From positions 1 through 64,000 of the forward strand of contig SVHZ01000001.1 in NCBI GenBank assembly GCA_015055525.1: DNA of 64,000 bases, written 5' to 3'. A program made the position numbers and the translations under genes. Positions 9,809 to 50,147 of this stretch are shown piece by piece; positions within the stretch are counted from its first letter, which is position 1, and each line of letters starts with the position of its first letter. Below the pieces are notes generated by a model that saw only the letters and a program-made list of their open reading frames with translations, made no database searches and was not told the DNA's origin. Origin of the DNA: Clostridiales bacterium. Its GTDB lineage: Bacteria > Bacillota > Clostridia > Christensenellales > Borkfalkiaceae.

Positions 9809-9971
9809 GCTCAATCACAACCCATGATTGATTATCGAACGCATGAAACACGGCGTAATACTGTGTTAAAGCCACTTGAAAATACGAAAAAAGTATTATC
9901 TACGGGCTTTGCCTTGTCTTACTTGTGTTTGATGCGTTCTCTTAAAAATCAATCATAAATTGCGATAGAGC
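9809..9971. ncRNA. Candidate structured element (nested stems) in the 3' region of the ATPase gene
   Basis: gctcaatcacaa/ttgcgatagagc, atgattgatt/aatcaatcat, gaacgcatgaaacac/gtgtttgatgcgttc (14/15), aaagcc/gggctt. Confidence 0.55.
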
Positions 9972-29649: not shown

Positions 29650-31164
29650 GTGGAAAGAATAGGAATTATTGATTTAGGTTCTAATACCGCAAGGCTCGTT
29701 ATCGTTGAGATGCTCGGCGATGGGCATTTTATGGTTATTGACCAACTCAAAGAAAGCGTAAGGCTCGGTAAAGATATGGAGAGAGACGGGTTCTTAAAAC
29801 CCCAACGTATTGCCGAGACTATTAAGACGCTTAAAATGTTTAGAAAACTTTGCGATGCTTATGAGATTGAGAGAATTATCTCGGTTGCCACCGCAGCGGT
29901 TCGCCGTGCAAAAAATCAAAGAAGTTTTCTTGATGAAATCGTTGCAAATACCGGAATTAAACTCAAAGTGCTTTCTGCAGAAGAGGAGGCAACTTACGTT
30001 TATCGTGGGGTAATAAATACAATGGATATTTCCAAGGGGTTAATCTTGGAAATCGGTGGTGGTAGCACTAAGGTTATATACTATAACCGCAGAAATCTTC
30101 TTCATTATGAAACCCTTCCGTTTGGTGCGGTAACGCTTACCGACCTTTTCTCTCAAGAAGGTTTATCTCAAAAAGAGCAAGCGGAAAAAATTGAAGAATT
30201 TGTAGTTGAGCAAATATCGAATATCGAGTGGCTTAAAGAACTTGATCCCGAAACTCAAATTATCGGTTGTGGCGGTTCGTTTAGAAACCTTTGTAAAATC
30301 GTAAAAATGATGAAAAAATCACCGCTTCCGCTTATACATAATTACAACGTTAAAACGGAAGAATTCGAGCAAGTTTACGATATGATAAAGGGTCTCGATA
30401 GCGATAAGAAGATGAGAATTAAAGGCGTTTCTCCTACAAGAGCGGATCTTTTACCGTCTGCTTTTGCCGTTGCGCACGCGTTTATTAAAAATCTCAATTT
30501 TGAAAACATTACTATCTCGGCTTGCGGTTTAAGAGAAGGCATAATGTTCAATTACGCCGTTCCAACCACCGTTGAAAAGCCTATATCCGACGTTTTGACT
30601 TACAGTTTGCAAACGCTCGTTAAGTACTATCATTGTAACGAAAAGCACGCAGAGCAAGTAGTTAACCTTTCCGTTCAACTTTTCAAGCAGATGAGAGTTC
30701 TTCACAAGTTCCCACGTCAATGCCTTAAAATACTTAAAGTTGCCGCATATCTTCACAATGCGGGAACGAGCATTAAGTATTACGATTATCAAAAACACAC
30801 GAGTTACATTATATTAAATTCGAGTTTATACGGAATAACTCAAAGAGAAGTAGTTCTTGCCGCGCTCGTTGTTTCAAATTATAAAAACGACGATTTGTCT
30901 ATGGCGGACCTTGTTAAATACAAAGAGTTTATTTCTGAAGAAGACGTAGAAATTATTAGAAAACTCGGCGTTATGCTTAGAATTGCCGTAAGTTTAGATA
31001 GAAGTATGGCAAGTAGCGTTGAAACTATTGATTGTGACGTTTTAGGTGATTCAGTTATAATGAAAACCAAGTTCAATAGCGATGCAACTTTAGAGATTAA
31101 AGACGCGCTCTCATCTCAAGCGGATTTTAAGCGAGTATTCAAGAAGAATCTCGAAATCCTTTAA
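29650..31164 (+). CDS. ppx: Ppx/GppA-family exopolyphosphatase
   Basis: GIIDLGSNTARLVIVEM, VATAAVRRAKN, LEIGGGSTKVIYY; GTG start with SD. Confidence 0.88.
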   Translation: MERIGIIDLGSNTARLVIVEMLGDGHFMVIDQLKESVRLGKDMERDGFLKPQRIAETIKTLKMFRKLCDAYEIERIISVATAAVRRAKNQRSFLDEIVANTGIKLKVLSAEEEATYVYRGVINTMDISKGLILEIGGGSTKVIYYNRRNLLHYETLPFGAVTLTDLFSQEGLSQKEQAEKIEEFVVEQISNIEWLKELDPETQIIGCGGSFRNLCKIVKMMKKSPLPLIHNYNVKTEEFEQVYDMIKGLDSDKKMRIKGVSPTRADLLPSAFAVAHAFIKNLNFENITISACGLREGIMFNYAVPTTVEKPISDVLTYSLQTLVKYYHCNEKHAEQVVNLSVQLFKQMRVLHKFPRQCLKILKVAAYLHNAGTSIKYYDYQKHTSYIILNSSLYGITQREVVLAALVVSNYKNDDLSMADLVKYKEFISEEDVEIIRKLGVMLRIAVSLDRSMASSVETIDCDVLGDSVIMKTKFNSDATLEIKDALSSQADFKRVFKKNLEIL

Positions 31165-31175
31165 TTTTAAGACAT

Positions 31176-31207
31176 AAAAAAGCAAGGCTCGATGCCTTGC
31201 TTTTTTT
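31176..31207 (+). terminator. Rho-independent terminator
   Basis: aaaaaagcaaggctcgatgccttgcttttttt. Confidence 0.8.
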
Positions 31208-31210
31208 ATT

Positions 31211-31323
31211 CCGTTATTTGCGTCGCCTATCTTTGTTTCTGCTCAAGAGATAGACTTCGATGACCAACAAGGTCTATCTCAGCCTATCTCTTTCGCGAGC
31301 CTTGATATGCTCGCAACTAACGG
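31211..31323. ncRNA. Candidate structured RNA/repeat element, copy A
   Basis: Outer stem ccgttatttgcg/cgcaactaacgg, inner stem aagagatag/ctatctctt, apical GACC/GGTC; homologous to 49950-50061 with compensatory changes. Confidence 0.7.
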
Positions 31324-31538
31324 CTTAAATTTTTATTCCGTTATAACCGGTGCAATACGGCGTTAAAAAATTTTACGCTCTAAAAGTGTTTTTGTAAGAT
31401 TTTTTTGTTAAAATGTGACAATGCAAAAAAATAATATATTCACTTTTTAATAAAATGGGATTATAAAGTTTGCCAAAACTGAATTTTTATGATAAAATAA
31501 ACGCATATTTTTATTTTTTATATAAGGAGTTATAAATT

Positions 31539-48550: not shown

Positions 48551-49948
48551 ATGGAAAAAAGAGCAGTAACTATGGAAAAACTCGTAACTCTTTGCAAAAC
48601 GAGAGGTTATATTTTCCCCGGTAGTGAAATATACGGTGGCTTAGCAAATACTTGGGATTACGGTCCGTTAGGCGTTGAACTTAAAAACAACGTTAAAAAA
48701 GCATGGTGGCAAAGATTTGTTCAAGAAAACAAATATAACGTTGGTTTAGATGCCGCTATACTTATGAACCCTCAAACTTGGGTAGCATCTGGTCACTTGG
48801 CAGGCTTTTCAGATCCGCTTATGGATTGTAAAGAGTGCCACGAAAGATTTAGAGCAGATAAACTTATTGAAGATTGGGTAAAAGAAAATAATTACGCTCT
48901 TGAAAAGGGTATTGATGCGTTCACTCACGAAGAAATGAGAAATTTCGTTGAAGAACACAATATTCCTTGCCCCACTTGCGGTAAGCACAATTTTACTGAC
49001 ATTAGGCAATTTAACCTTATGTTCAAAACTTTCCAAGGCGTAACCGAAGATAGCAAAAATACGGTATATCTCCGCCCTGAAACAGCGCAAGGTATATTCA
49101 CTAACTTTGTTAACGTTCAACGTTCTCAAAGAAGAAAAGTTCCTTTCGGTATTGCTCAAATCGGTAAGTCTTTCAGAAATGAAATTACCCCTGGTAACTT
49201 CATTTTCAGAGTAAGAGAATTTGAACAAATGGAACTTGAATTCTTCTGTAAACCCGGAACTGACCTTGAGTGGTTTAACTACTGGCGTTCTTTCTGCCGT
49301 CAATGGCTCTTAGACATTGGTCTTAAAGAAGAACATTTAAGACTTCGCGATCACTCGCCTGAAGAACTTTGTTTCTACTCTAAAGCAACTACTGACTTTG
49401 AGTATTTATTCCCGTTCGGTTGGGGTGAACTTTGGGGCGTAGCGGACAGAACTGATTACGACCTTACTCAACATCAAAACGTTTCAAAGAAAGATTTATC
49501 TTACTTTGATCCTGAAACTAACGAAAGATACGTTCCTTACGTTGTTGAACCTTCTCTCGGCGTTGAAAGATGCGTTTTAGCAGTTCTTTCCGGCGCTTAC
49601 GATGAAGAAGAAGTTGGCGAAAACGACGTTAGAACTGTTCTTAGATTACATCCTTGTCTTGCTCCTTTCAAAGCAGCCGTATTACCGCTCAGCAAGAAAC
49701 TTAGCGAAAAGGCTCTTGAAGTTTACGATGAACTTTCAAAATACTTTATGGTTGATTACGACGAGGCTGGTTCAATTGGTAAGAGATACCGTCGTGAAGA
49801 CGAAATTGGTACTCCTTTCTGCATCACTTACGACTTTGATAGTGAAGTTGACGGCTGTGTAACCGTTCGTGATAGAGATAGTATGGAACAAGTTCGTATG
49901 CCTATTGCGGAACTTAAAACTTATATTGAACAAAAAATTAGACTTTAA
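48551..49948 (+). CDS. glyS: Glycyl-tRNA synthetase (dimeric type)
   Basis: [53 protein letters not shown]. Confidence 0.95.
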
Positions 49949-49949
49949 T

Positions 49950-50061
49950 CCGTTATTTACGGCGTTATACTTCGTTTCTGCTTAGTTTTTGAACTTCGAT
50001 GACCAAAAGGTCTATCTCATCTCAAAAACTTCGCGAGCCTTGTCTAACTTGTAACTAACGT
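49950..50061. ncRNA. Candidate structured RNA/repeat element, copy B
   Basis: Outer stem cgttatttac/gtaactaacg, inner stem agtttttga/tcaaaaact, apical GACC-AAAA-GGTC; homologous to 31211-31323. Confidence 0.7.
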
Positions 50062-50147
50062 CTTAAAGTATGCGTTCAACTCAACTTTGAGTATAAACGT
50101 CTTAAAGTAAAGCGTTGAATAGACGTGTGTATTAACATATATAACAA

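Follow-up and report, generated by a model that had tools for sequence, protein, structure and literature searches.

A multi-copy palindromic repeat found at stop codons, with an outer arm that matches its site, in uncultured gut Clostridia

Two related palindromic units lie within the window, by which we mean the whole 64,000-nt stretch of DNA analysed here, and both sit at the ends of housekeeping genes, one behind a gene for a Ppx-like phosphatase (29650-31164) and the other at the end of glyS. The initial annotation had described them as a homologous pair of about 112 nt; the homology was borne out, but the extent was not, as the covariance model lengthens the units to 31204-31330 (copy A) and 49943-50068 (copy B). 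The features of the two loci are listed below, with the matches that define them; stop codons, outer strands and arms were read directly from the sequence.

31162-31164, forward strand: stop codon of the Ppx-like phosphatase gene, upstream of copy A
31165-31173, forward strand: TTTTAAGAC, an extra outer strand ahead of the built-in terminator of copy A, for which pairing with the right end CTTAAA is possible
31180-31202, forward strand: hairpin resembling an intrinsic terminator, placed behind the stop codon and ahead of the main palindrome of copy A (inverted repeat, then T-tract)
31204-31330, forward strand: copy A, full palindromic unit of subfamily S1 (R1 covariance-model match, 144.5 bits, E 5e-38)
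31245-31253, forward strand: inner helix 5' arm of copy A, aagagatag
31284-31292, forward strand: inner helix 3' arm of copy A, ctatctctt
31331-31365, forward strand: remnant of a second copy that follows A head to tail and is truncated at its 3' side (profile match to model positions 1-35)
49943-50068, forward strand: copy B, full palindromic unit overlapping the glyS stop codon (R1 covariance-model match, 138.8 bits, E 2e-36)
49946-49948, forward strand: glyS stop codon within the outer 5' arm ACTTTAA of copy B, whose partner is TTAAAGT
49984-49992, forward strand: inner helix 5' arm of copy B, agtttttga
50022-50030, forward strand: inner helix 3' arm of copy B, tcaaaaact
50069-50095, forward strand: tail of copy B (profile match reaching position 156)
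50096-50126, forward strand: 5'-truncated fragment behind copy B, model positions 118-148 (profile match)

Copy A is of a terminator-bearing form that begins immediately behind the stop codon at 31162-31164, and its TTTTAAGAC-type extra outer strand followed by a terminator recurs in identical layout at the loci L004, L065, L063 and L074. As the initial annotation had it, the inner arms of A and B are perfect inverted repeats made of unlike letters, set between the common flanks ACTTCGATGACC and TCGCGAGCC. The folding energy of both copies is much lower than that of their shuffles (z -6.5 for A and -5.0 for B). Elsewhere in the window, positions 9836-9940 match the model weakly (25 bits, E 2e-4); this may be a copy that has degenerated or a palindrome that arose by chance.

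Because just two copies were in sight, the initial annotation missed how many copies of this element exist and how widely they are spread through the order, as well as their anchoring at stop codons, their tail and an outer arm that is specific to each site. The covariance-model search that it had proposed, performed with a model built from 20 copies, gave about 84 matches in the home genome (1.53 Mb, uncultured gut Clostridia) and further matches in relatives, and an exact core pattern was found there 24 times, compared to 0 occurrences of the reversed control pattern. The unit is an imperfect palindrome of about 127 nt, followed in many copies by a tail of about 27 nt. From the outside inward, it is composed of an outer arm TTTTAA/TTAAAA, a 2x2 mismatch (mostly TC/TC), the pair CGTTA/TAACG, a conserved single mismatch (T/C at position 14, seen in 155 of 171 copies), more short helices, a freely varying inner helix and, at the apex, the hairpin GACC...GGTC, in which one T is bulged. 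Several subfamilies of the home genome have this frame in common and differ considerably in their interiors, so that the near invariance of the loops, also claimed at the outset, holds within S1, while other subfamilies with the same architecture carry different loops. A further palindrome type, TTTAGCCAAAGATTCCGTACA...GTACGCGTACTTTGTCTA, was seen at L128:5642-6045 (reverse strand), where it is placed within the same outer frame, and downstream of ppx in the genome G003 (L226). Head-to-tail fragments are found behind tailed copies, 36 of them 5'-truncated and 7 3'-truncated, beside 66 full copies, and in other genomes the corresponding figures are 62 and 13. A hairpin resembling an intrinsic terminator lies between stop codon and palindrome in approximately 10% of copies, copy A included; most of these are preceded by TTTTAAG, which is able to pair with the right end (TTTTAAGG/CCTTAAAA in L004 and L065, TTTTAAGC/GCTTAAAA in L074).

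The stems covary, as had been proposed from the two window copies. Two-sided changes affect 19 of 39 pairs in the 20-copy alignment of the home genome (A1, made from sequence alone), and 36 of 39 pairs in 106 distinct matches from other metagenome-assembled genomes (A2), an alignment that was fitted to the model and is hence biased toward it. The covariation score was reached by 0 of 500 shuffles, and was lost when the partner was shifted by 1-3 columns. A palindromic element maintained by its structure, one of the two readings offered initially, is thus strongly supported. The other, an RNA fold selected on the sense strand, fares poorly when the kind of pairing is considered. Selection on a sense-strand RNA would be expected to favor G·U pairs. 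Among the 6473 stem cells of 193 distinct copies, however, G·T is as rare as A·C (62, or 1.0%, and 100, or 1.5%, respectively), whereas tRNA stems of the same genus, used as control in place of the L10 leader, which was dropped for its too few consensus pairs, contain 34 G·T (7.1%) and 0 A·C (0%) in 480; intrinsic terminators collected with a strict detector show 30 G·T and 19 A·C in 1867. In addition, 170 of 178 copies fold better as the antisense strand, as do 25 of 29 copies of other families, because most of the conserved mismatches oppose two pyrimidines on the sense strand and two purines on the antisense strand. Scarce G·T and a better antisense fold make the pairing look like one kept at the DNA level, or on the opposite strand, more than in mRNA. 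These data argue against selection on sense RNA alone, and for pairing that is maintained in DNA.

The genomic address of the repeat is well defined. In 157 of the 165 copies with genes on both sides (a slightly redundant count, as some loci overlap), the upstream gene is on the same strand and directed at the element. In 101 of 134 copies the stop codon marks the start of the element, being either included in the outer arm or immediately in front of it, and 23 of 25 copies of other families with an upstream ORF begin there as well. We rejected TTTTAA as a simple insertion target responsible for this anchoring, since only 8 of 276 other intergenic TTTTAA sites lie at a same-strand stop codon. 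Besides glyS and the phosphatase gene of the window, host genes include rplA, rplJ, rpsR, gap, tpiA, fhs, purF, a purH-like gene, obgE, dnaJ, nrdD and prs. The element is also found in the spacer that separates rplA from the L10 leader and in the one from rplJ to rplL; given this location inside an operon, it is presumably transcribed. Transcription or translation would still have to account for the sense orientation and the stop-codon address.

The outer arm, in turn, is matched to its site. Complementarity of an arm with its own partner is far higher than with shuffled partners at model positions 1-6 and 9-13, and is at chance one base outside the unit; in copy B, for example, CTTTAA at the end of glyS has TTAAAG as its partner. 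In other families too, the outer arm depends on the site and yet pairs with itself (79-100% at positions 1-6 with its own partner vs 32-62% with shuffled ones), while farther out the pairing is not significantly over chance. The repeat is a long imperfect hairpin with a conserved inner part, whose outer left arm contains or follows the host stop codon and whose right arm complements that left arm. A clear target-site duplication was not seen at the inspected sites. Many copies are flanked by TTAA, which is self-complementary, and the other sites show inverted identity alone and no direct identity; a TTAA target-site duplication as the source of the complementary outer arms fails at the arms TATAAC/GTTATA and AGAAAT/ATTTCT.

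Comparison of orthologous gene ends shows that copies come and go between related species and that one subfamily can take the place of another behind a given gene; tandem and 5'-truncated arrays are formed as well. Filled and empty sites are found after both rplJ and rplA. After rplJ, four close species carry four different interiors, one of them inverted, all immediately behind GGCGAATAA, and the site is empty in five further species of the genus and in other genera. In the rplJ-rplL spacer of G002 (L264), the interior is inverted and the outer arms and stop-codon position are unchanged. Eight of about 19 sampled G003 copies share their host gene with a copy of the home genome, compared to about 0.6 by chance on our own estimate, which assumes some 1,400 available genes; three of the eight belong to the same subfamily and carry changes compensated in place, and five have a different interior. 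Overall, 85 orthologous copy pairs were available, and in the 16 of the same subfamily we counted 74 two-sided Watson-Crick changes vs 21 one-sided ones (6 G·T, 6 A·C and 9 other). Such a pattern reflects either rapid restoration of pairing or the simultaneous replacement of both arms through recombination between copies.

The first model matched 24 of 61 relatives, all of them in the home family, where copy number ranges from 0 to more than 57 among the matches listed. A second, broader model matched 45 of 297 genomes of the order, which we take to be Christensenellales, from more than 10 GTDB families, mostly with one to few weak matches per genome; those with names are MAGs of uncultured gut Clostridia and one Candidatus Coproplasma. 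Inner letters near TATAAGCGTCGCAATACTTTGTT ... GCCTCGTCTTGCTCGCTTCTA recur in different families. Because the broader model finds matches across the order, the arms seen in the window are a variant of an older and wider element. No named RNA class had been recognized initially, and Rfam agrees: its 4227 models gave no gathering-threshold match in the window, and in permissive mode none over the element in 4 home loci and 16 loci of other families, on which basis a known RNA family was rejected. At L013:1727-1909 (reverse strand), a T-box leader scored 78.9 bits, under the Rfam gathering score of 93. Carriage by viruses was rejected as well, as viral contigs contained 0 matches to the right-end pattern. 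Many copies are followed by small hairpins in arrays, in which the linkers are conserved and the stems vary (downstream flanks of L005, L015 and L018; in the home genome, C51:26048-26130, C10:33706-33785 and C21:39532-39610). These arrays resemble Gut-1 RNA (RF01706), which was described from metagenomes. Gut-1 matches were found in 22 of the 61 relatives, with a maximum of 53 in one genome, and supply genome context for RF01706.

With regard to how these copies move, Pfam profiles for the Y1 transposase (PF01797) and for DDE_Tnp_1 (the PF01609 family, to which the DDE search refers) found no protein in any of the 9 genus genomes, and reverse transcriptase (PF00078) was present in one of the 8 congeners but neither in the other 7 nor in the home genome, so that neither RAYT/Y1, DDE_Tnp_1 nor a reverse transcriptase could be accepted as the mover. 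This scarcity is unusual given how rich in repeats the genus genomes are. Among the loci examined, no pair of half-elements flanked an ORF as an autonomous partner would. Retroposition, at which the 36 to 7 bias toward 5'-truncation hints, is unsupported without a reverse transcriptase, and the tandem position of the truncated fragments suggests local events. As in MITEs, the repeat is short, non-coding and multi-copy, and has terminal inverted repeats and both filled and empty sites.

On balance, and with modest confidence, we favor the view that this palindromic DNA repeat, which is non-coding and present in many copies, is a mobile element of the REP/YPAL/MITE kind. Its copies are anchored to stop codons, and presumably travel with the transcript as a hairpin in the 3'-UTR; both its mover and its role in the host are what we infer from the patterns described above. 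The arms would stay Watson-Crick complementary at the DNA level, possibly through a recombinase that recognizes the DNA hairpin and/or through arm-to-arm templated copying, and the same machinery might spread the copies, those surviving being in sense orientation at stop codons. As many copies lie inside operons, they would be carried in mRNA, where a stable hairpin could slow exonucleases, Rho or terminating ribosomes, the last by analogy with E. coli REPs within 15 nt of a stop. Against this view stand the genus-wide absence of Y1_Tnp and DDE_Tnp_1, with reverse transcriptase in one of nine genomes, and the want of a clear target-site duplication. Simple arm-to-arm copying, moreover, would remove the conserved mismatches such as T/C at position 14, and was rejected as sole mechanism for that reason, and in the roughly 10% of copies with the terminator first, mRNAs would mostly stop before the main hairpin is reached. 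More tentatively, we consider that an order-wide class of elements might be addressed to stop codons and have its outer stem matched to the host gene end by DNA pairing, either by hairpin-templated copying or by a folded-strand recombinase, without the transposase types tested here, and might also provide the core genes of Christensenellales-like bacteria with a hairpin device of general use at their 3' ends.

If the sense strand instead encoded a structured RNA that acts in cis, as a part of the 3'-UTR whose fold is under selection where it stands, at the end of translation, and which is only secondarily mobile, this would account for the stop-codon anchoring, the orientation, the housekeeping genes and operons that act as hosts, the occupation of the same genes in several species and the changes compensated in place. 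We nonetheless think this reading unlikely, as stems change on both sides but do not tolerate G·U as tRNA stems do, the sense strand folds worse than the antisense one in nearly all copies, and most relatives have the same gene without the element. Watson-Crick-only pairing, empty sites, tandem and truncated arrays and, among the matches listed, the spread in copy number within one family would all suit a purely selfish DNA hairpin whose insertion machinery is aimed at stop codons and which has no host function; this reading seems to us quite improbable, because pairing persists in orthologs, where inert copies would be expected to decay one change at a time if they are not converted by each other. 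The better fold of the minus strand, both here and in other families, could also point to a non-coding RNA transcribed from it, convergent with the upstream gene, with the built-in terminator acting in both directions; on that strand the conserved mismatches become tandem G·A, and G·U would exceed A·C by 100 to 62. That excess is weak, however, no promoter was identified upstream on the minus strand, the element and its gene are in most copies not separated by a terminator, and antisense transcription within rplJ-rplL is unlikely, which leaves this explanation with very little weight. Least probable of all would be an attC-like folded recombination site of a tyrosine recombinase. The imperfect palindrome behind a stop codon, the variability of its stems, the conservation of its unpaired bases, the better fold of one strand, the arrays and the exchange of interiors speak for it, but the RYYYAAC...GTTRRRY boxes are not in the required order in the subfamilies examined by eye, whose ends read GTTA...TAAC. 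An integron attC was rejected on this ground, and the hosts are core genes and not cassettes.

High-copy palindromes of bacteria such as REP, ERIC, YPAL and bcr1 are old puzzles, in which the upkeep of structure can rarely be demonstrated copy by copy. Orthologous copies in sister species offer dozens of natural compensatory experiments at a clear genomic address, the stop codon, and G·U content provides a test that tells RNA from DNA pairing. The movement of non-autonomous palindromes without the usual transposases, and the tuning of core operons by stop-codon hairpins, are thereby made testable. We found no description of the family in the literature searched, and it is unusual for combining stop-codon anchoring with a site-matched outer arm across an order.

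Among known systems, REP/BIME sequences (GTAG-/CGTC-tagged) are likewise high-copy palindromes, mostly located 3' of genes and in many cases transcribed (PMC3733652, PMC12306157), and ribosomes stall at those E. coli REPs that lie within 15 nt of a stop codon (PMC12306157). REPs, however, measure 20-40 bp compared to about 127 here, and only about 11% of those in E. coli lie within 15 nt of a stop (PMC12306157), whereas 75% of the copies studied here start at one; nor does our repeat carry the GTAG/CGTC tag of REPs with RAYT, as the unit begins with TTTTAATCCG or with site-specific letters, and no RAYT/Y1 was found in the genus. YPAL/RU-2 of Yersinia, an imperfect palindrome of about 168 bp, similarly shows recent mobility through filled and empty sites, targets near dyad symmetry and carriage with upstream genes, but makes target-site duplications of 3-26 bp (PMC2229807), of which none is clear here; we found no literature report of a stop-codon register or a site-matched outer arm in YPAL. 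Gut-1 RNA (RF01706) is present in the same genomes and also consists of hairpin arrays with conserved linkers and variable stems, but as a 77-nt array of small hairpins it is a neighbor of the repeat and not a homolog. The bcr1 element of the Bacillus cereus group, also Firmicutes, is a stem-loop of about 150 bp with tens of copies and mobile features (PMC6542083, PMC2267715), and differs in its association with TTTAT repeats; we encountered no stop-codon anchoring of bcr1 in the text consulted. ERIC/IRU/RU-1, finally, is a palindromic repeat of the same 127 bp, co-transcribed, and with an orientation-dependent effect on the upstream transcript, but belongs to an unrelated host group and has 7-bp TIRs, TA termini and a target-site duplication (PMC2229807).
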